Positions 8,397 through 54,570 of a DNA stretch of 64,000 nt are shown here, piece after piece. The notes beneath the pieces were generated by a model. The model saw nothing but the letters and a program-made list of their open reading frames with translations. It did not search any database and had not been told where the DNA came from. Origin of the DNA: Vicinamibacteria bacterium (lineage in GTDB: Bacteria > Acidobacteriota > Vicinamibacteria > Vicinamibacterales > UBA8438); the NCBI GenBank assembly GCA_022820825.1, contig JAJEEU010000062.1, forward strand, positions 1 to 64,000, in the 5' to 3' direction. A program made the position numbers and the translations under genes. Within the stretch, counting starts at the first letter, position 1; each line of letters opens with the position of its first letter.

Positions 8397-8459
8397 TGCC
8401 GGATCAAGCGTGCGAGATTATAGCGAGGAGTGTCGCGCGCGGGCAATGGGCTGGCAGCC

Positions 8460-8609
8460 CGTGGCGAAAGTCCCCCTGCATTCGACCGGCCATGCATCCC
8501 GCCTGAACTGCGTTGTTCCTCGCTCACATACTCTCAAGTATGCTCACTCGTCACGCCTTGCCAGACGGGCGCCTGACCGGTCTCGGTGCTACGCGGGACT
8601 TTCGCCACG
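8460..8609. repeat. 150-bp intergenic element bounded by a perfect 15-bp inverted repeat
   Basis: The gap between the zinc-ribbon gene and the receiver-PilZ gene holds CGTGGCGAAAGTCCC at 8460-8474 and its exact reverse complement at 8595-8609. Inside lies a second hairpin, CATACT (8527-8532), loop CTCA, AGTATG (8537-8542). No convincing protein is encoded, and an ATG at 8513 that would extend the next gene lies inside it. It could be a small mobile element remnant or a structured RNA. There is no transposase. Confidence 0.55.
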
Positions 8610-8659
8610 AACTGCTATGCTGGACCGGGCCGTCCGCGCGACGGGTGGCGGTCATTTCC

Positions 8660-9376: not shown

Positions 9377-9687
9377 GCCGCCCGCCGCCCCTCCGGCGCC
9401 GCATCCGACCGCCCGTGATAGAATCCCGCGGCACCGGTTTCCCGCCGGCCGTTTGCGTGTTCGAGCGTCTAAATCTGCCGGGGCGTCCCGGACGCGGGCC
9501 GCAGCAGCAAGGCAACCGGCCCAACAACCGCCAACGGTGAAGTACGGAAGGGGACGGCAAGCATGAACGCAGCCGTACCCAGGCCGCGCACGGCGCGGCC
9601 CGCCGGCCACGGAGTGGGGCGAAGGGGCCCCCGCGAGTGGCCGGCGGGGGTTTGGGGCGAAGCCCCAAGTAACCAAGGAGCGACCTC
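9377..9687. other. Intergenic region with a repeat copy
   Basis: This 311-base gap has no gene I would support. It contains a TAGAAT-like hexamer near 9420 that could serve as a -10 element for the ABC operon, then the repeat element at 9581-9674, then the AAGGAG ribosome-binding site at 9675-9680 in front of the GTG at 9688. A short frame from the ATG at 9563 simply reads through the repeat and is rejected. Confidence 0.5.
9581..9674 (+). repeat. Interspersed GC-rich repeat, copy 1
   Basis: About 94 bases that match the copy at 53031-53122 almost throughout: both begin AGGCCGCGCACGGCG and end CCCCAAG.AAC. The 3' part folds as TTGGGGC-GAA-GCCCCAA (9652-9668), a seven-pair stem with a GNA-type triloop that is known to be unusually stable. 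It lies directly before the ribosome-binding site of the ABC ATPase gene. Confidence 0.75.
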
Positions 9688-10671
9688 GTGATTGAGGTGC
9701 AGCACGTCACCAAGCGCTACGGACCCGTCACCGCCGTCGACGACGTCAGTTTCCGGGTCGATTCCGGCCAGATTCTGGGGTTCCTCGGCCCCAATGGCGC
9801 GGGCAAGACGACCACCATGCGGATCCTGACCGGATGCGCGTCCGCTACCGAGGGACAGGCGTTCGTCGCGGGCTACGACGTGTTCGAGGAGCCGGTCGAG
9901 GCGAAACGCCGAACCGGCTACCTGCCCGAGACGCCGCCGCTCTATCCGGACATGACGGTCCGCGAGTACCTCGCGTTCGCCGCGCGGATCAACGGCATCC
10001 GGTCGGTCGCGCAGCGCGAGCGCGTGGCCGCCGCCATGGCGCGCACGAACGTCGAGGACGTGGCCGACCGGCACTGCGGCAAGCTGTCGAAAGGCTACCG
10101 CCAGCGCGTGGGGCTGGCGCAGGCCATCCTGCACAACCCGGACGTGCTGATCCTCGACGAGCCGACCGCCGGCCTCGACCCCAAGCAGATCATCGAGACC
10201 CGGGAGCTGATCAAGGAGCTGGCCGGGGACCACACCATCATCCTGAGCACGCACATCCTCCCGGAAGTGGCGCAGACGTGCGAGCGCGTCGTCATCATCA
10301 ACAAGGGCCGGGTGGTCGCGGTCGATACGCCGGAGAACCTGACCGGCCGGCTGCGCGGCTCGGAGACGATCAGGGTGCAACTGGACCCGCGGGGGGCCGA
10401 CGAGACGGCCGTCGTGCAGGCGGCGACGGTCCCCAACGTCTCGAACGTCACCGCAACACCCACCCAGGACGGACTCGTGACGCTGGAAGTGCAGTGCGAG
10501 AAGGGCGCCGACGTGCGCAGCGAGGTGGCCCGCGCCGTCATCACCAGCGGGTGGGGCCTGCTGGAGCTCACGTCCATGCGCATGAGCCTCGAGGACATCT
10601 TCCTCGAGCTGACGACTTCGGAAGAGCCGCGGGAGGAAGACGCCGAAGCGCCGGAGGCAACAGATGCGTAA
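9688..10671 (+). CDS. ABC transporter ATP-binding protein (GldA-like)
   Basis: A 327-residue ATPase that would energise the permease encoded next. Walker A is LGPNGAGKTTTMRILTG, the signature region is KLSKGYRQRVGLAQAI, Walker B is VLILDEPTAGLDP and the switch His is in ILSTHILPEV. The roughly 100-residue C-terminal extension is as in GldA/CcmA-type exporters. The start is GTG with AAGGAG eight bases upstream. The end overlaps the permease start by eight bases. The four-gene order ATPase, permease, GldG-like, DUF4340 recurs in Bacteroidetes, Acidobacteria and others. The substrate is not known. Confidence 0.9.
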   Translation: MIEVQHVTKRYGPVTAVDDVSFRVDSGQILGFLGPNGAGKTTTMRILTGCASATEGQAFVAGYDVFEEPVEAKRRTGYLPETPPLYPDMTVREYLAFAARINGIRSVAQRERVAAAMARTNVEDVADRHCGKLSKGYRQRVGLAQAILHNPDVLILDEPTAGLDPKQIIETRELIKELAGDHTIILSTHILPEVAQTCERVVIINKGRVVAVDTPENLTGRLRGSETIRVQLDPRGADETAVVQAATVPNVSNVTATPTQDGLVTLEVQCEKGADVRSEVARAVITSGWGLLELTSMRMSLEDIFLELTTSEEPREEDAEAPEATDA

Positions 10672-16539: not shown

Positions 16540-17523
16540 CTACGAGACGGGTGTCAGCGGAGGCTGGCCGCCCAGCACCGCCACGGCGTTGGCCGCTGCC
16601 AGCTCCGCCATGGCCGTCCGCGTGTCGCGGGTCGCGCTGCCCAGGTGCGGCGCCAGCACGACCTGCTCCAGCGCCAGCAACTCCTGCTCGACCGACGGCT
16701 CCCGCTCGTACACGTCGAGCGCCGCCCCGGCGATCAGCCGCTCGCGCAGCGCCCAGGCGAGGGCCGCCTCGTCGACCACCGGACCGCGGGCGGCATTGAT
16801 CAGCAGCGCCGTCCGCTTCATCCGCGCCAGCGCCCGACGGTCGATGAGGTGCCGCGTCGCGGCGTTCAGCGGCACGTGCAGCGACACGACGTCCGCGGTC
16901 ACCAGCAGCTCGTCGAGCGTCACGCGGCGCATTCCCGGCGGGCCGCCGGACGTGCGGTCGGCACGCTCCGCCGCCGGCCCGCTGCCGGCCGCGACGACCT
17001 CCATGCCGAACGCCGCGGCACGCTCCGCCACGGCCCGGCCTATCCGGCCCGGCCCGACGATGCCGAGGCGCTTGCCGCTCAGCTCCATCCCCAGCATGAA
17101 GTCGAGGGCCCAGCCGCTCCAGCCGCCCGCACGCACGAGCCGGTCGCCTTCGGCGATGCGGCGCGCCACGGCCAGGATCAGCCCCCAGGTGAATTCCGCG
17201 ACGGCGCCGGTCAGCACGTCGGGGGTATTGGTGACGACGATGCCGCGCGCGCGCGCCGCGGCCGCATCGATGTTGTCGTAGCCCACGCCGACGTTGGCGA
17301 TGACGCGCAGGTCGCCGCCCGCGGCGATGACCTCCCCGTCGACGGCGTCGGTTACCAGGCAGACGAGGCCGTACTTGCCCGCGACCCGCTTCCGCAGCTC
17401 GGCGGGCGGCAGGGGCCCGTGCTCGGCGTGCAGGTCGACGGCGCAGGCGGCCTCCAGCCGCGCCAGCGCCGCGCCCGGCAGGCGCCGGGTGACCAGCACC
17501 GGCGGCTTCGCAGGTGCGTTCAC
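16540..17523 (-). CDS. D-isomer-specific 2-hydroxyacid dehydrogenase
   Basis: A 327-residue NAD(P)-dependent dehydrogenase of the glyoxylate/hydroxypyruvate reductase type. The NAD fold is GKRLGIVGPGRIGRAVAERA. The catalytic triad is Arg in NAARGPVVDE, Glu in DVYEREP and His in APHLGSAT. The start GTG overlaps the stop of the last BMC-P gene by four bases (GTGA), so it belongs to the microcompartment operon. It may recycle NADH by reducing a 2-oxoacid or lactate-type product. It lacks a visible encapsulation helix, so whether it works inside the shell is open. Confidence 0.88.
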   Translation of the reverse strand: MNAPAKPPVLVTRRLPGAALARLEAACAVDLHAEHGPLPPAELRKRVAGKYGLVCLVTDAVDGEVIAAGGDLRVIANVGVGYDNIDAAAARARGIVVTNTPDVLTGAVAEFTWGLILAVARRIAEGDRLVRAGGWSGWALDFMLGMELSGKRLGIVGPGRIGRAVAERAAAFGMEVVAAGSGPAAERADRTSGGPPGMRRVTLDELLVTADVVSLHVPLNAATRHLIDRRALARMKRTALLINAARGPVVDEAALAWALRERLIAGAALDVYEREPSVEQELLALEQVVLAPHLGSATRDTRTAMAELAAANAVAVLGGQPPLTPVS

Positions 17524-17810
17524 GGTGCCAGCGGGGGATCGGCGCCGGTGTCGACCGTGTCGACCACGCCGACGACGGCGACATCGACCGGAGCGGCGCG
17601 ACGGCGCAGGGCCGCGCCGGCGGCCCGCCCTTCGATCACCACCAGGACCTTGTCGCCCACGCCGGCCTGCGCGGCATCCACGGCCAGCAGCGACCGGCCG
17701 TCCGGTACGCCGGCGGCATCCAGCAACTCGACGAGCAGCAGCTTGGCGCCGGTCAGTTTTTCGTTCTTGTGCGTCGCGACGACGTTGCCGGTGACCCGTC
17801 CCAGCCGCAC
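17520..17810 (-). CDS. Microcompartment vertex protein BMC-P (EutN/CcmL family), third copy
   Basis: A 96-residue pentamer-forming shell vertex protein. It begins MRLGRVTGNVVATHKNEKL and continues KLLLVELLD, then AGVGDKVLVVIEG and VDVAVVGVVDTVD, the EutN/CcmL fold in order. The C-terminus extends a little past the fold. It starts one base after the second BMC-P stop. Confidence 0.94.
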   Translation of the reverse strand: MRLGRVTGNVVATHKNEKLTGAKLLLVELLDAAGVPDGRSLLAVDAAQAGVGDKVLVVIEGRAAGAALRRRAAPVDVAVVGVVDTVDTGADPPLAP

Positions 17811-17811
17811 T

Positions 17812-18096
17812 TCAGGACTCCGGCGCCGTGTCGTCCACGAACCAGGAATCCACGCTGGCGACGACCGCCGCGTCGGTGGGCACTTGCCGCGGCAGGAACG
17901 GAAAGGAGGCCTCGCGGCCGCGGACGATGAACACGGTCTCGCCGACGCCTGCGCCGATCGAATCGACTCCGACCAGGCTGGCGCCGGCGGCGGCGCCGTC
18001 GGGCGCCAGCGGCTGGAGCACCAGCAGCTTCAGTCCGTGCAGGCCCGGGTCCTTCCGCGTGGCGACGACCGTGCCCGCCACTCGCGCCAGTTGCAC
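17812..18096 (-). CDS. Microcompartment vertex protein BMC-P, second copy
   Basis: A 94-residue EutN/CcmL-type protein (MQLARVAGTVVATRKDPGL, LKLLVLQPL, GVDSIGAGVGETVFIVRG). It differs from its neighbours by a longer loop before the last strand (REASFPFLPRQVPTD). Five-fold vertices of the shell are capped by such proteins. Three paralogues in one operon suggest vertices of different types or different loading. The gap to the first copy is four bases. Confidence 0.94.
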   Translation of the reverse strand: MQLARVAGTVVATRKDPGLHGLKLLVLQPLAPDGAAAGASLVGVDSIGAGVGETVFIVRGREASFPFLPRQVPTDAAVVASVDSWFVDDTAPES

Positions 18097-18100
18097 GGGA

Positions 18101-18373
18101 TCAGTGCTCCGTCAACTCGACCGTATCGACGATGCCGACGATGGCGGCGTCCACGGGGGTTTCCTGCAACTGGCCCGCCAGGCGCGCGGAGCTGCCGCTG
18201 ACAATCAGCACTGTCTCGCCGAAGCCGGCGTCGACCGTGTCGACCGCCACCAGTTGGCCGCCCCGCGCCGCGCGGTGCGCATCGAGCGGCTGGACGACCA
18301 GCAGCTTGCTGCTGACCAGCCGCTCGTCCTTCTGCGTGGCGACGACCGTGCCGATGATCCTGGCGAGAAGCAT
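18101..18373 (-). CDS. Microcompartment vertex protein BMC-P, first copy
   Basis: A 90-residue EutN/CcmL-type protein (MLLARIIGTVVATQKDERL, SSKLLVVQPLDAH, DAGFGETVLIVSG, AIVGIVDTVEL). It is the most canonical of the three in length. A 41-base gap containing a copy of the interspersed hairpin repeat separates it from the BMC-H gene upstream, so the repeat could affect relative shell-protein levels. Confidence 0.94.
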   Translation of the reverse strand: MLLARIIGTVVATQKDERLVSSKLLVVQPLDAHRAARGGQLVAVDTVDAGFGETVLIVSGSSARLAGQLQETPVDAAIVGIVDTVELTEH

Positions 18374-18384
18374 TTGTCGTCAGA

Positions 18385-18410
18385 TGGGGCTGCGCCCCAA
18401 ACCCCCGGCG
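18385..18410 (-). repeat. Interspersed GC-rich repeat, copy 2 (core only)
   Basis: The minus strand reads CGCCGGGGGTTTGGGGCGCA followed by GCCCCA, identical to the core of the copy at 53091-53116 and one base from copy 1. It folds as TGGGGC-GCA-GCCCCA. It sits inside the microcompartment operon between the BMC-H and first BMC-P genes. Confidence 0.7.
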
Positions 18411-18414
18411 GCTG

Positions 18415-18711
18415 CTAACCGTCCGTGTCCGGGTCGGACGTGCCGATCGGCAACGCCTCTTCGAGGTTGGCGTGCGGCCGGGGAATGACGTGGACGGATA
18501 CCAGCTCGCCCACCCGCCGGGCGGCCGCTGCGCCGGCGTCCGTGGCCGCCTTCACGGCCGCCACGTCGCCGCGTACGATGGCCGTTACGTAGCCCGCGCC
18601 GATCTTCTCCCAGCCGACGAGCTTCACCGTGGCAGCCTTGACCATGGCGTCGGCCGCTTCGATCATCGCGACCAGCCCCTTGGTCTCCACCATCCCCAAC
18701 GCCTCACCCAT
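18415..18711 (-). CDS. Microcompartment shell hexamer BMC-H
   Basis: A 98-residue hexameric shell protein that tiles the facets of the compartment. It begins [20 protein letters not shown], the canonical BMC-H N-terminus, followed by [20 protein letters not shown] (pore-region K-I-G-x-G) and [19 protein letters not shown] use the ATG at 18711 because GGAGGTAACC sits just upstream. A longer frame to 18744 has no support. It is the only BMC-H here, and no BMC-T is present. A further facet protein may lie elsewhere. Confidence 0.95.
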
Positions 18712-18762
18712 GGTTACCTCCATGCGCCGTGCACCGGCGGCCACCGGTCACGCGCATGCGTA

Positions 18763-19617
18763 TCAGCGCAACTGTTTCACGGCATCCTCGATGAGCGCCG
18801 CAAGCTCGCGGTATGTTAATCGAATTTCCCCGTCGCCACTCGCTGGCGGGTGTGGGGCGGCCGGGCTGTCGACGACCTGCTGGCCGGGCGCGGACGGCGC
18901 CTGCACGACCTGGCAGTCCTGATCCTCGCCTCCCGCCCCCGACTCCCCCGGATCCGGACATATCGGCGCCGGCGCAGCGATGCCGTACGAGCCGCGCAGC
19001 GTCTGCAGCCGCTCCACCTCCTCGCGCGACAGCAGCCGCTCGCGGCCGAGCGTGCGCGCCACCAGGCTGATGCGCGCGAAGTGCTCGATGGTCTCCATCT
19101 TGTAGTACGCGGCGTACAGGTCGCCGGCGACCGTCAGCGCGCCGTGGTTCGCCAGCAGCAGGCCGTCGTGGGCCTTGATGTACTGCCTTACGGCGTCGGC
19201 CAGCTCCTTTGTGGACGGCGTGCCGTATTCGGCGATTGGAATGCTGCCCAGCGTCGTGACCACCTCGGCGAGCACGGCCCGGTCCAGGGGTATCCCGGCC
19301 ACGGCGAAGCCGGTGGCGGTGGGCGGATGCGCGTGGACCACGGCGCTTGTCTCGGGGCGCAGCTCGTACACCGCCAGGTGCATCAGCAGCTCCGACGACG
19401 GGTCGCGCCGGCCCGCCAGCTTGCGTCCCTCGAAGTCGGTGACCACCATCATGTCGGGCGTCATGAAGCCCTTGGATACGCCCTTGGGCGTGGTGAGGAG
19501 GCGCTCGTCGTCGAGGCGGACGCTGATGTTGCCGTCGTTCGACGCCACGTAGGCGCGGGCGTGCAGGCGCCGCCCCAACTCGACGATATCGGCGCGCAGT
19601 TCCTCCTCGCGATTCAT
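18763..19617 (-). CDS. Class II aldolase/adducin with C-terminal encapsulation-type tail
   Basis: A zinc aldolase of the L-fuculose/rhamnulose-phosphate family. Residues about 1-215 form the fold with SNDGNISVRLDD, the catalytic Glu in DPSSELLMHLAVY, the zinc pair VVHAHPPTATGFA and the third His in LANHGALTVAG. Homologues stop near residue 220. This one continues with a Pro/Ala/Gly/Ser-rich linker of about 45 residues and ends in an amphipathic helix, LTYRELAALIEDAVKQLR. A linker plus terminal amphipathic helix is the known signature of cargo targeted into microcompartments, and the shell genes follow immediately. It probably cleaves a deoxysugar phosphate to lactaldehyde and DHAP inside the shell. 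Confidence 0.88.
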   Translation of the reverse strand: MNREEELRADIVELGRRLHARAYVASNDGNISVRLDDERLLTTPKGVSKGFMTPDMMVVTDFEGRKLAGRRDPSSELLMHLAVYELRPETSAVVHAHPPTATGFAVAGIPLDRAVLAEVVTTLGSIPIAEYGTPSTKELADAVRQYIKAHDGLLLANHGALTVAGDLYAAYYKMETIEHFARISLVARTLGRERLLSREEVERLQTLRGSYGIAAPAPICPDPGESGAGGEDQDCQVVQAPSAPGQQVVDSPAAPHPPASGDGEIRLTYRELAALIEDAVKQLR

Positions 19618-50845: not shown

Positions 50846-53041
50846 TCAGAACCGGTGCGTGTAGTTGAGCTTTGTAGTGGCGCCCCGCGACAGCGTCTCC
50901 CAGCGGTCGTCCGTCGACCGCCAGTTCTCAGTGTAGACGAAGTAGAAGTCGCGTCCCGGCCGCAGAATCCAGCGCAACCGCAGGTACAGACCCGACACCG
51001 CCGTCACGGTGTCGTACTGGAGGTTCCCGTCGAACGCCACCCAGGGGCTGGCGTGCCAACTGCCGAGCAGCCTGATCAGGTTGGTCTCGAAACGCCCCTG
51101 GAACAGGTCGACGTCCTCGTGCTCCCATTCGGTAGTGGCGGTGACGCCGGCCAGCGGCCGTGCGGTGAACGCGAGCTCCACCGCCGTGCGCTGGCCGGAC
51201 CAGAACTCCCCGAAGTTGACCGACGCCCGGGCAGACAGGCGGCGGTGAGCGGCGCTCTCGGCGTTCAGCTCCCAGGCGTCGAACCGGTAACGCCCTACCG
51301 GCAGCACCACCCCCGGATTGATGTGGAATGGCTCTTCGAGCAGCTCGAAGCGGAAGTTGCGCCGCAGGTCGAAGCGGTCGCCGCTGTCGTAGACCACGCC
51401 CAGCAGCTCCAGCCCGGTCTCGCGCGTCAGCAGCCGGTTGTGCAGGTCGGACAGGTGCTCGTGGTAGACGCCGAACTCGAGGTTGCGCACGCCGTCGAAC
51501 CAGTCGGGGCGCGGCGCGTAGCGCACGACCGGGTTCGCGCGGCGGAACCCGCGGCGCTGCACGAAGCCGACCGCCGGGTCCCACGCCTCGCCGAACTCGC
51601 GGTACGAGAGGTGCGCCCGCCACACGTCGTTCGGGTAGTTGATGCGGAACCCGCGCGACGAGCGGTCCGCCGCGCCGTCGATGCCGCCCCGCTCCGGATC
51701 CGTGTGCACCACGTAGAACGCCTGCATCTGCAGGTTCTTGTCGCCCAGGAACGTCGAGGTGAAGAGGTCGAGGTCCACGCCCGCGGTGTGCCTGTCCACC
51801 GGCGCCGGCACCCCCCCCGAGGCGGCGGTCGAGCGGCGCGTGTAGATGAAGCCGATGCTTGACTGCGCGAGGAAGTTGCGCTTGACCCGGCCGACGGTGA
51901 ACTGCTCGGCCGGCCGGCCGTCCACCGGCCCGGTGCGGACCTGCAGGAAGCCGAGGTCGTACGCCCCGGCCTGCCCGGCCAGCCGCGCGCCGTACTCGAT
52001 GGGGATGACCCGCCCCTCGTCGAGGCCGATGCGCCGGCTGAAGTACGGATTCACCGCGTTGAGCGGCGCGAACTCGAAGATGCTCGCGCTCTCCAGGAAG
52101 AAGTCCCGCTGCTCGGGATAGAAGAGCGGGAAGCGCGTCAGGTTGACGCGCCGCCGGTCGACCTCGGCCTCCGCGAAGTCCGTGTTGACCGTCACCGCCG
52201 CACGCAGGTTGGGGGTGACGCTGTAATTGACGTCGATGCCGGCGTCGGGCGTCGTCTCGGTCGGCTCGCCCGCCACGTCGCGCCAGACCGCCGCCCCGTA
52301 CGGGACGACCTCCAGGCCCAGGCCCTGGGTCACGTCCTGCAGTCCCGTGAGCCGTCCCGCGTGGATCGGCCGCAGCAGGCCCTGGTTGCGGCGGTAGCCG
52401 GACCACACCAGCTCCTCGTTCTTGCGCCGCACCGTGCGCTGGAAGTTGATGCCCCACGCGTCCGCGGACTCGTCGAAGTTGAGCGTGCGGAACGGGATGC
52501 GGATCTCGGCCGACCAGCCGAACGGGCCGCGGGCGGCGCGCGCCTCCCACACGCCGTCCCAGGCCTTGTTCACCCCCGCGTAGCCCGTGTTGCGCACCAG
52601 GCCGTCGCCCATGAGCCCGGCCGGATTGGTCTCGAAGAAGTACGCCGTGCGGCCGTCGAGGAACGTGTCGAGGATCAGCATGAAGCGGTCGTCCGAGGTC
52701 AAGTCGTGGTCCCGCTGCCGCTGATGGCCGAGGATGCCGTCCGGATCGCTGTCGTGCAGCGTTGCTCCTATGTACAGGTTGTCCGCGTCGAACGCCACGC
52801 GCACCTCGGTCCGCTCGGTGGGCTGCTGCCCCTCCACGGGTTCCTGCTGCAGGAAGCCGCCGGCGACCGCCGCGCGCGTCCACGCCGCCTCGTCGAGCCG
52901 GCCGTCGAGGGCGATCCGCTCGTCCGGCGCCAGCGGCAGGGCCCGCACGCTGCGCGCAGCATTGGCGTCCTGCGCCTGCAGCGGAACCTGTGCCCAACCC
53001 ACCGCGCACACCAGGACAAAAAGGACGAGCAGGCCGCGCAC
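50846..53041 (-). CDS. CBM9-like/DUF5916 outer-membrane protein
   Basis: A 731-residue protein starting at the GTG at 53041, where a signal peptide begins (VRGLLVLFVLVCAVGWAQ). Residues about 40-210 form a family 9 carbohydrate-binding-like domain (ERIALDGRLDEAAWTRA, VRVAFDADNLYIGATLHDSD, WGINFQRTVRRKNEELVWSG). The rest is a DUF5916 domain of alternating beta strands ending in TTKLNYTHRF, a terminal Phe typical of outer-membrane barrels. The frame stays open 132 codons upstream, but that part is the interspersed repeat. The gene is divergent from the propeller gene at 53236. The ligand is unknown. Confidence 0.85.
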   Translation of the reverse strand: MRGLLVLFVLVCAVGWAQVPLQAQDANAARSVRALPLAPDERIALDGRLDEAAWTRAAVAGGFLQQEPVEGQQPTERTEVRVAFDADNLYIGATLHDSDPDGILGHQRQRDHDLTSDDRFMLILDTFLDGRTAYFFETNPAGLMGDGLVRNTGYAGVNKAWDGVWEARAARGPFGWSAEIRIPFRTLNFDESADAWGINFQRTVRRKNEELVWSGYRRNQGLLRPIHAGRLTGLQDVTQGLGLEVVPYGAAVWRDVAGEPTETTPDAGIDVNYSVTPNLRAAVTVNTDFAEAEVDRRRVNLTRFPLFYPEQRDFFLESASIFEFAPLNAVNPYFSRRIGLDEGRVIPIEYGARLAGQAGAYDLGFLQVRTGPVDGRPAEQFTVGRVKRNFLAQSSIGFIYTRRSTAASGGVPAPVDRHTAGVDLDLFTSTFLGDKNLQMQAFYVVHTDPERGGIDGAADRSSRGFRINYPNDVWRAHLSYREFGEAWDPAVGFVQRRGFRRANPVVRYAPRPDWFDGVRNLEFGVYHEHLSDLHNRLLTRETGLELLGVVYDSGDRFDLRRNFRFELLEEPFHINPGVVLPVGRYRFDAWELNAESAAHRRLSARASVNFGEFWSGQRTAVELAFTARPLAGVTATTEWEHEDVDLFQGRFETNLIRLLGSWHASPWVAFDGNLQYDTVTAVSGLYLRLRWILRPGRDFYFVYTENWRSTDDRWETLSRGATTKLNYTHRF

Positions 53042-53122
53042 GGCGGGGCCCGGCGGTCGCGGCGCGGGGCGAGGGGCCCCCGCTAGCGGTCGCCGGGGGT
53101 TTGGGGCGCAGCCCCAAGCAAC
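53031..53122 (+). repeat. Interspersed GC-rich repeat, copy 3
   Basis: About 92 bases matching copy 1 (9581-9674): AGGCCGCGCACGGCG at the left, a GGGGCGAGGGGCCCCCGC block, and the hairpin TTGGGGC-GCA-GCCCCAA at the right. Its left end overlaps the start codon of the DUF5916 gene and it sits between two divergent genes. Confidence 0.75.
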
Positions 53123-53235
53123 GATGCCGCCGTGCCGGCGCTCAGCCCGCCCGCCCGCGCCTTGCACTTTCGGGAGCCTTGCGACAAGATTCGCAGATGA
53201 TCGTCCGGGCAGGAGGCACCATGAAGTCTCAGTAG

Positions 53236-54570
53236 ATGATTGCTGTCGCCGCGGCGCTGCTGCTGGCGGCCGGTTCCTTGGGCGTCCCCGCCGCGTCGGC
53301 CGAAGACAACTGGCCGCAGTTCCGCGGGCTCCGGGCCGGTGTGGCAGAGGATAGCCCAACCCTGCCGGAAACCTGGAGCCAGACCGAGAACGTCGTCTGG
53401 AAGATGCCCATCCCGGGCCACGGCTGGAGCTCTCCAATCGTCTGGGACGACCTGGTCGTCGTCACGTCCGCTGTCAGCGACGATCCGGGTCCGGGCCCGC
53501 AGCTCGGGTTGTACGACGGCCATTCGTCGGCCGCCATTCCGACCGCGATTCATCGCTGGATGGTCTACGGCCTCGACCGCGATTCCGGCCAGGTGCGCTG
53601 GGAGCAGGAGGTGCGCGCGTCGCCGCCGCCGATCGCCCGCCACGGCAAGAACACCTACGCGTCTGAGACGCCCGTCACCGACGGCGAGCGCATCTACGTC
53701 TACTTCGGCGGCATCGGCCTGTATGCGTTCGACATGGACGGCAACCCGGTCTGGTCGAAGGAGATGGAGCCCCTGGAGTACCGGCACGGCTGGGGCGGCG
53801 GCGCCTCGCCGGTGGTGCACGACGACCGCCTCTACATCGTGAACGACAACGACGGCCAGTCGTTCCTCGCGGCGTACGACAAGCGGACCGGCGAGGAGGT
53901 CCTGCACGTCGACCGCGACGAGGGCAGCAACTGGGCCACGCCGTTCATCTGGGAAAACAACGTCCGCACCGAGATCGTCACCGCCGGCAGCGACAAGGTG
54001 CGCTCCTACGGCCTCGACGGCGAGCTGCTGTGGGAGCTCACCGGCATGACCTGGATCACGTCGCCCACGCCCTACGCCAAGCACGGGCTGCTGTATATCA
54101 GCTCCGGCTTCCTGGCGGACGCCGTGCGCCCGGTGTACGCCATCCGGCCCGGAGCCATCGGCGACATCACGCTGGGGGAGGGCCGCGACCGCAACGAGTA
54201 CATCGCCTGGTCGAACCCGAAGCTGGGCACTTACAGCACGACGTCGCTTGTGTACGGGGACTTCCTCTACACGCTCCTCGACCGCGGCTTCCTGATCTGC
54301 ACCGACGCCCGGACCGGCCGCGAGGTCTATTCGCGCAAGCGGATCGCGCGGCGCGCCACGGCGTTCACCGCCTCGCCATGGGCGTACAACGGCAAGATCT
54401 TCGTGCTGAGCGAGGAGGGCGAAACGTTCGTGATCAACGCCGGCCCCGATTACGAGGTGCTCGGCAGCAACGCGCTCGACGAGATGGCCATGGCCACCCC
54501 GGCCATCGCCGACGGCAGCCTGTACATCCGGACGGCCGGGCACCTGTACCGCATCCAGGAGACGCCGTAG
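53236..54570 (+). CDS. Exported PQQ-like beta-propeller protein; amber codon just upstream of the ATG
   Basis: A 444-residue propeller protein with signal peptide (AVAAALLLAAGSLGVPAASA) and outer-membrane-assembly/PQQ-like repeats (WPQFRGLRAG, IHRWMVYGLDRDSGQVRWEQ, ERIYVYFGGIGLYAFDMDGN, VWSKEMEPLEYRHGWGG). It lacks the Cys pair and catalytic Asp of PQQ dehydrogenases, so it is probably a structural or binding propeller. AGGAGG at 53211-53216 points to the ATG at 53221, but that frame reads Met-Lys-Ser-Gln-TAG before the ATG at 53236. Without the TAG, the Lys would supply the missing positive charge of the signal peptide. Either reinitiation occurs or the TAG is a lesion. Confidence 0.85.
   Translation: MIAVAAALLLAAGSLGVPAASAEDNWPQFRGLRAGVAEDSPTLPETWSQTENVVWKMPIPGHGWSSPIVWDDLVVVTSAVSDDPGPGPQLGLYDGHSSAAIPTAIHRWMVYGLDRDSGQVRWEQEVRASPPPIARHGKNTYASETPVTDGERIYVYFGGIGLYAFDMDGNPVWSKEMEPLEYRHGWGGGASPVVHDDRLYIVNDNDGQSFLAAYDKRTGEEVLHVDRDEGSNWATPFIWENNVRTEIVTAGSDKVRSYGLDGELLWELTGMTWITSPTPYAKHGLLYISSGFLADAVRPVYAIRPGAIGDITLGEGRDRNEYIAWSNPKLGTYSTTSLVYGDFLYTLLDRGFLICTDARTGREVYSRKRIARRATAFTASPWAYNGKIFVLSEEGETFVINAGPDYEVLGSNALDEMAMATPAIADGSLYIRTAGHLYRIQETP

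Follow-up and report, generated by a model that had tools for sequence, protein, structure and literature searches.

The REP sequences of the GTAG and CGTC types are 20-40 bp long, bear an unpaired tag and are located mostly downstream of genes, and the CGTC REPs likewise have no transposase dedicated to them, according to the available part of PMC3733652. ERIC, Correia, RUP and other repeats are about 100-200 bp long, are strongly folded if transcribed, and most of them have terminal inverted repeats, as portions of PMC2229807 describe them. BOX, RUP and SPRITE of the pneumococcus are interpreted as parasitic and are found in excess in convergent gaps (PMC3049150, in excerpt). In the open-access literature searched, no description of such a repeat family in Acidobacteriota was found.

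The repeat family described here resembles each of these groups in some respects and departs from each in others. Like REP/REPIN sequences, it is extragenic, hairpin-forming, high in copy number, patchy between relatives, and probably non-autonomous mobile DNA; unlike them, it is about 140 nt long with four different hairpins instead of a 20-40 bp palindrome or an inverted pair, it has neither a conserved unpaired GTAG/CGTC nor a link to RAYT, and it abuts gene starts as well as ends, whereas the main position of REPs in the excerpted PMC3733652 is downstream of genes. ERIC/IRU (127 bp) and YPAL of enterobacteria are similar in size, intergenic position, strong folding if transcribed, and having no known transposase. 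However, they are marked by short inverted repeats or by target duplications, and ERIC also by a terminal TA (PMC2229807, in the part available), no clear instance of which is seen here; ERIC is set apart from the present family by its description, not by sequence comparison. BOX, RUP and SPRITE are likewise small folded intergenic repeats that insert near or into one another, and BOX and RUP have similar copy numbers (~100 each). BOX and RUP differ in having terminal inverted repeats and target duplications (PMC3049150, same excerpt), and the present family differs from all three in being GC-rich and nearer to gene starts in its host.

The window is the whole 64-kb stretch of DNA that was analysed. 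It is part of contig 31 of the host genome (G000), a 4.23-Mb draft that is 94% complete and consists of 108 contigs. An earlier note had pointed to repeat sites in the areas of 9581, 18385, and 53031, and all three are real and well above chance. The pattern GGGGTTYGGGGCGNAGCCCCR, with up to three mismatches, matches the window exactly three times, at 9647-9667 (+), 18385-18405 (-), and 53096-53116 (+). Shuffled windows have a mean of 0.08 matches and none gets to three, which rules out a chance origin of the three copies. With an 87-nt core in BLAST, the identity is 98% for copy 1 (9581) and 86% for copy 3 (53031). The features are as follows.

9541..9679, plus strand: full-length copy 1 (covariance model R1, 136.8 bits, model positions 1-139)
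9550..9580, plus strand: hairpin 1, GGGGACGGC ... GCCGTACCC, with a variable loop (folds; paired changes)
9582..9600, plus strand: hairpin 2, GGCCGCGC-ACG-GCGCGGCC (folds; paired changes)
9601..9646, plus strand: hairpin 3, CGCCGGCCAC ... GTGGCCGGCG, with an inner hairpin inside (folds; paired changes)
9652..9668, plus strand: hairpin 4, TTGGGGC-GAA-GCCCCAA (folds; paired changes)
9669..9674, plus strand: 3' tail GTAACC of copy 1 (read from the sequence)
18385..18412, minus strand: copy 2, hairpin 4 plus a few hairpin-3 bases (BLAST, 96% over 28 nt)
53018..53128, plus strand: copy 3, without hairpin 1 (R1, 82.2 bits; hairpin 4 at 53101-53117)

The segment 9535-9705 folds with -95.7 kcal/mol, compared with -74.7 kcal/mol in its own shuffles (z -5.1). 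Alignment of 46 host copies reveals four consecutive hairpins in a repeat unit of about 140 nt, and conserved bases extend from about 25 nt 5' of hairpin 1 to about 13 nt 3' of hairpin 4. In this alignment the consensus of hairpin 1 is GGGGAC..GTCCCC with a variable loop, and the junction profile gives A[TA][CG]TAACGA as the consensus of the 3' tail. The extent first assigned to the element, 9581-9674, captured its right part and missed the upstream part, where an extra hairpin lies at 9550-9580. The tail of copy 1 is directly followed by AAGGAG (9675-9680) and, at 9688, by the GTG start of an ABC-transporter ATPase gene (Pfam ABC_tran).

Copy 2 (18385) is flanked by a BMC-domain gene and an EutN/CcmL gene (Pfam). 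The 26-base core reported at 18385-18410 is present in the microcompartment operon as stated, in the form of a truncated 28-nt remnant of the 3' end on the minus strand; its last stem pair is not closed. The claim that all copies lie immediately upstream of starts applies to copy 2, 11 nt before the EutN/CcmL start, and not to copy 3. The latter sits in a divergent gap: its last hairpin is 118 nt upstream of the plus-strand gene at 53236, and its 5' side adjoins a minus-strand gene. The operon itself (window 16540-19617) includes two EutN/CcmL genes and BMC-domain, class II aldolase, and 2-hydroxyacid dehydrogenase genes; its version in the same-genus genome G001 has repeat copies at no fewer than three places.

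In the host genome, at least 118 copies were found with the covariance model of the unit (150 candidates scored), i.e. one per about 36 kb. The family is therefore dispersed over the genome as the earlier note had predicted, with more than a hundred copies instead of hundreds. BLAST gave at least 42 matches in the host (40 of 223 candidates scored). The BLAST yield was 55 distinct copies in G000, from which three degraded ones were left out; six others that were truncated or lacked hairpin 1, the window copy at 53031 among them, were not put into the alignment, leaving the 46 copies of A1. Model matches in the G000 loci numbered 62 + 64 = 126, of which 117 are distinct, the duplicates being mostly one place counted twice. 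Among these 117 copies, a called gene is present on the 3' side in 112, on the 5' side in 113, and on both sides in 108; 99 were used in the relative-distance test, and the junction profiles are based on 82 (5') and 107 (3') of them. Genes were called with an in-house codon-usage caller trained on the window, not with a published tool. In G001, clusters of full and partial copies occur at L135:16338-16619 and L281:15988-16559, some adjoining N runs of the assembly.

Standard pairs fill 98.2% of cells in alignment A2 (55 distinct rows), 97.0% in A3 (63), and 93.8% in A5 (42, from relatives); when the partner is slid by 1-3 columns as a control, pairing is down to 40-56%. Changes on both sides of a pair occur in 14, 17, and 20 of the 38 pairs in A2, A3, and A5, respectively. 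None of 500 shuffles matches the real covariation score in any of the three, which were fitted to the structure of the model and whose scores are inflated by kinship among copies. In an independent RNAalifold run on A1, which was aligned without structure, both sides are changed in 12 of the 38 pairs. Such changes affect six of eight pairs (A2) or all eight (A3) in hairpin 1, two of seven in hairpin 2, and five (A2) or six (A3) of ten in the outer stem of hairpin 3; in the stem of hairpin 4, one U-A pair is C-G or G-C in other copies. These compensatory changes show that the predicted hairpins are kept paired in the host and across one order of Acidobacteriota. Ortholog pairs of copies have broken base pairs alongside kept ones and so do not show upkeep of the structure in place after insertion.

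Three stretches were compared with the same-genus genomes G001 (blocks ~80-88% identical) and G002 (~75-84%); all three genomes are drafts (G000 94%, G001 88%, and G002 71% complete). The copy at 9581 fills its site in G000, and the orthologous place is empty in both relatives, the gap being 287 nt in the window vs 159 nt in G001, and 323 vs 177 nt in the comparison with G002. The AAGGAG and the start behind this site are kept alike in G000, G001, and G002, i.e. also at the empty sites. Likewise, the G000 copy at C49:15554 has an empty counterpart in G002, and those at C47:133752 and C86:33706 have empty counterparts in G001. Sites 5 and 6 in the microcompartment operon have copies in G001 and none in the window or G002, and at site 3 a copy in G001 only separates a gene's stop from the ATG that follows; G000 has two bases there. 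The 18385 place is occupied by a full copy in G001 and by the remnant in the window, and is empty in G002. Two G000 copies are clearly common to G001 at orthologous sites; some copies are older and common to relatives. Two sites fit poorly: site 4 has a reverse partial copy in G002 and none in G000, and at C27:22323 (L018:1489-1626) G001 is also without the gene end, which blurs the ancestral state. Nested and tandem partial copies are present, and orthologous sites sometimes hold different subfamilies, as would be expected if copies had inserted repeatedly or exchanged sequence with each other. As judged from the aligned genomes, the family is shown to be mobile by the fact that close relatives differ in its presence at given sites. 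The repeat finding is sound, and larger than first noted.

None of the 117 distinct host copies lies inside a gene as called by the in-house caller. Of 112 copies with a called 3' neighbour, 74 have their 3' end toward a start and 38 toward a gene end; of 113 with a called 5' neighbour, the 5' end points to a gene end in 62 and to a start in 51. Median gaps from the 3' end are 20.5 nt to starts and 7 nt to gene ends; from the 5' end they are 39 nt to gene ends and 106 nt to starts. Where the 3' end faces a start, it lies within 15 nt of it in 39 of 74 copies; for the 5' end this holds in 6 of 51 (Fisher p 1.7e-6). The same contrast is weaker for gene ends (25/38 vs 26/62, p 0.025). In 22 of the 74, the 3' end is 7-10 nt from the start. 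One host copy abuts a tRNA-Met gene, and one copy of a relative abuts a tRNA-Pro gene. Start positions are backed by an empty ortholog in a few cases, namely sites 3 and 5 and L048; at the last, a gene of the ribosome-binding-GTPase family, GTG is the start at the empty site, and an ATG precedes it at the filled one.

The proposed position bias is real but is not one toward starts alone: in the host the 3' end faces starts in 74/112, with ends making up the remaining 38 of the 112. In relatives, by contrast, the 3' end faces gene ends in 24 and starts in 15 of the 39 copies with a called 3' neighbour (42 distinct copies). Comparison of host and relatives therefore indicates that a 3' end near a gene boundary is general and a preference for starts is not. 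Host copies occupy 52 co-directional, 35 divergent, and 21 convergent gaps (of 108), while intergenic length in 125 kb of the host is 63% co-directional, 26% divergent, and 11% convergent (p 0.0013 vs copies); therefore, there is no special enrichment ahead of genes. The orientation in co-directional gaps is that of the genes in 38 cases and the opposite in 14 (p 0.0012, kinship of copies unadjusted). This sense bias is more than pure tolerance needs, and it counts against the reading that we favour, a mobile family spreading through intergenic spaces.

In the order, 16 of 80 genomes match by the model, 12 of them with at least six copies, in seven families of which other members have none; in a sample of the phylum Acidobacteriota, 5 of 149 genomes match, all within the order, and both searches used stricter filters by which weak matches are lost. 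By DNA, 24 of the 40 genomes in the set of relatives match, host included, single matches being maybe due to chance or, in G013, to a shared contig. The patchy spread within the order fits mobile DNA. In G013 (L053 and L028), a copy and its flank are near-identical to C22 of G000, though the genera are different; a shared contig, transfer, or a binning error are alternative accounts of this likeness. The exact 25-mer of the hairpin-4 region occurs in 34 stretches in named genomes, 15 of them in other groups (Chloroflexota, Clostridia, and Minicystis). These other-group stretches hold the short hairpin only, and spread of the element to other phyla was therefore rejected; judging by sequence, we take the look-alikes as probable convergence or a much wider simple hairpin. 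The hairpin-4 region GGCGGGGGTTTGGGGCGNAGCCCCA without the rest of the element is seen in L082, L087, L088, L093, and L103 (Candidatus Viridilinea) and in L091, L095, and L102 (Clostridia-type records).

Window 8450-8617 holds a second, unrelated repeat that is MITE-like, measures about 165 nt and is bounded by the terminal inverted repeats CGTGGCGAAAGTCCC ... GGGACTTTCGCCACG. G000 has at least 40 copies of it (40 of 117 candidates scored), G001 and G002 have many, and the window copy is absent at the orthologous place in both relatives. A fragment of this second repeat lies just upstream of an IS200-type Y1 gene at L138:1262-1352 (G016), and a similar gene in L140 is without it.

It was also considered that the present family may be a classical REP/REPIN family moved by a RAYT (an IS200/IS605-like Y1 enzyme) that the drafts have missed. 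The hairpins, extragenic placement, and the constraint of a folded single strand would fit such a system, and drafts at 94%, 88%, and 71% completeness do lose genes. However, the search for Y1/RAYT/IS200 genes gave no match in G000, G001, and G002, three copy-rich genomes of one genus, an absence that in drafts is not absolute, while the same search as a positive control found them in 5 of 14 control genomes. Y1 genes are present in 20 of the 40 genomes of the relatives set, yet they do not track the repeat, being found in 9 of 15 repeat-rich genomes (at least five DNA matches within this set) vs 11 of the remaining 25 (p 0.51). Among 20 of the 41 listed Y1 matches whose loci were scanned in relatives, none has a convincing copy (best R1 score 15.6 bits, E 0.087). 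There is no unpaired GTAG/CGTC tag in the junctions, the 3' tail being mostly ATCTAAC or AAGTAAC, with AAGTAGG once in 107, and CGTC/GACG occurs within the paired hairpin 1. The RAYT-type transposase proposed for checking was thus found neither in the host and its two same-genus relatives nor beside a convincing copy at the scanned Y1 loci, and mobilisation by RAYT, left without support by the Y1 searches, the loci scan, and the richness test, is considered unlikely. A transposase between neighbouring copies was sought as well; ten proteins encoded between two nearby copies were tested, nine of which fall into Pfam families, with no transposase among the ten, and this candidate was dropped. 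Terminal inverted repeats are not seen by eye (5' end ACGGTTGAA..., 3' end ...TAACGA), and no clear target duplication could be read by eye at the junctions of about six filled and empty sites, whose flanks are too diverged or rearranged for the left junction to be placed.

The covariation in the hairpins, the closeness of the 3' end to starts (7-10 nt in 22/74), and the favoured sense orientation (38:14) would all agree with a cis-regulatory RNA leader, kept by selection to control the genes behind it. Against this, the 20 proteins tested downstream of copies belong to unrelated families with no shared function, among them SHMT, Hsp70, ETF, SelA, an AcrB-type transporter, and anthranilate synthase; the 3' end in relatives faces ends more often than starts (24 vs 15); one and the same gene has the element or is without it between close relatives; and the window has no Rfam match at the gathering threshold against 4227 families. 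A permissive Rfam search of three loci gave two sub-threshold matches only, both off the copies. The dedicated regulatory element suggested earlier consequently finds no support, since the downstream genes are without a common function, riboswitch-like control was rejected on the same gene content, and a leader of this kind is quite improbable. Somewhat better placed, while still doubtful, is the idea that once-selfish copies are now used at many sites as stabilisers of mRNA ends, terminators, or folded leaders. Copies are present at gene ends as well as starts, copies common to orthologous sites exist, and uses of this kind have been reported for ERIC, NEMIS, and REP (PMC2229807 and PMC3733652, in the parts available). 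On the other hand, the region 9400-9800, which covers copy 1 alone, has no intrinsic terminator (stem + T-run), no T-rich tail, and no sigma-70-like site, and a terminator or sigma-70 promoter in copy 1 was dropped. An effect of the copies on mRNA is no more than plausible, and such co-option and the mobile-family reading can both hold.

With its demonstrated high copy number, four hairpins with paired changes, presence or absence at given sites, and intergenic placement with a 3' end near a gene boundary, the family is best read, at a probability of about 0.78, as short non-autonomous mobile DNA of about 140 nt, without a gene of its own, that spreads through intergenic spaces. Counting against this reading, besides the sense bias, are that no transposase turned up, that neither a target duplication nor terminal inverted repeats stand out at the readable junctions, and that ortholog pairs include broken base pairs. 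The traits of MITE/ERIC-type elements are found in so far as it is short, non-coding, mobile, and present in many copies, and terminal inverted repeats are absent. The likeness to REPs that was first proposed stands for its behaviour (extragenic, hairpin-rich, and mobile) and falls on the RAYT, the tag, and the unit size. Since it fails the tested marks of REPs, and the inverted-repeat mark of MITEs as well, we class it not as a REP but more generally, as a new family of 'small non-autonomous folded interspersed repeat'.

The scheme inferred for its spread has an enzyme encoded at another place moving the copies in trans, most likely by acting on the folded single strand; this would explain why stems keep pairing while the sequence and loops drift. 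Insertions would survive where the gene keeps a usable end, or a usable start codon and Shine-Dalgarno sequence. The 3' end may supply a stop codon to some genes running in, and sometimes a start codon to the gene behind, and most copies before a gene would enter its transcript as a strongly folded leader. A bolder and rather unlikely version is that the element is a portable translation boundary, whose 3' end (TAACGATG or TAACGAAG) would be suited to gene edges, giving a stop/start or leaving the Shine-Dalgarno sequence undisturbed, and which would re-leader genes with a folded 5' region as it is moved by a non-RAYT transposase.

The non-autonomous mobile family adds a recently active, structurally complex repeat to the phylum Acidobacteriota. 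Filled and empty versions of one gene start in close relatives are a ready-made expression test of a folded leader. As an abundant repeat whose shape is kept across families of the order and which moves without a visible RAYT, it lends itself well to the question of what moves REP-like repeats where RAYT is missing.
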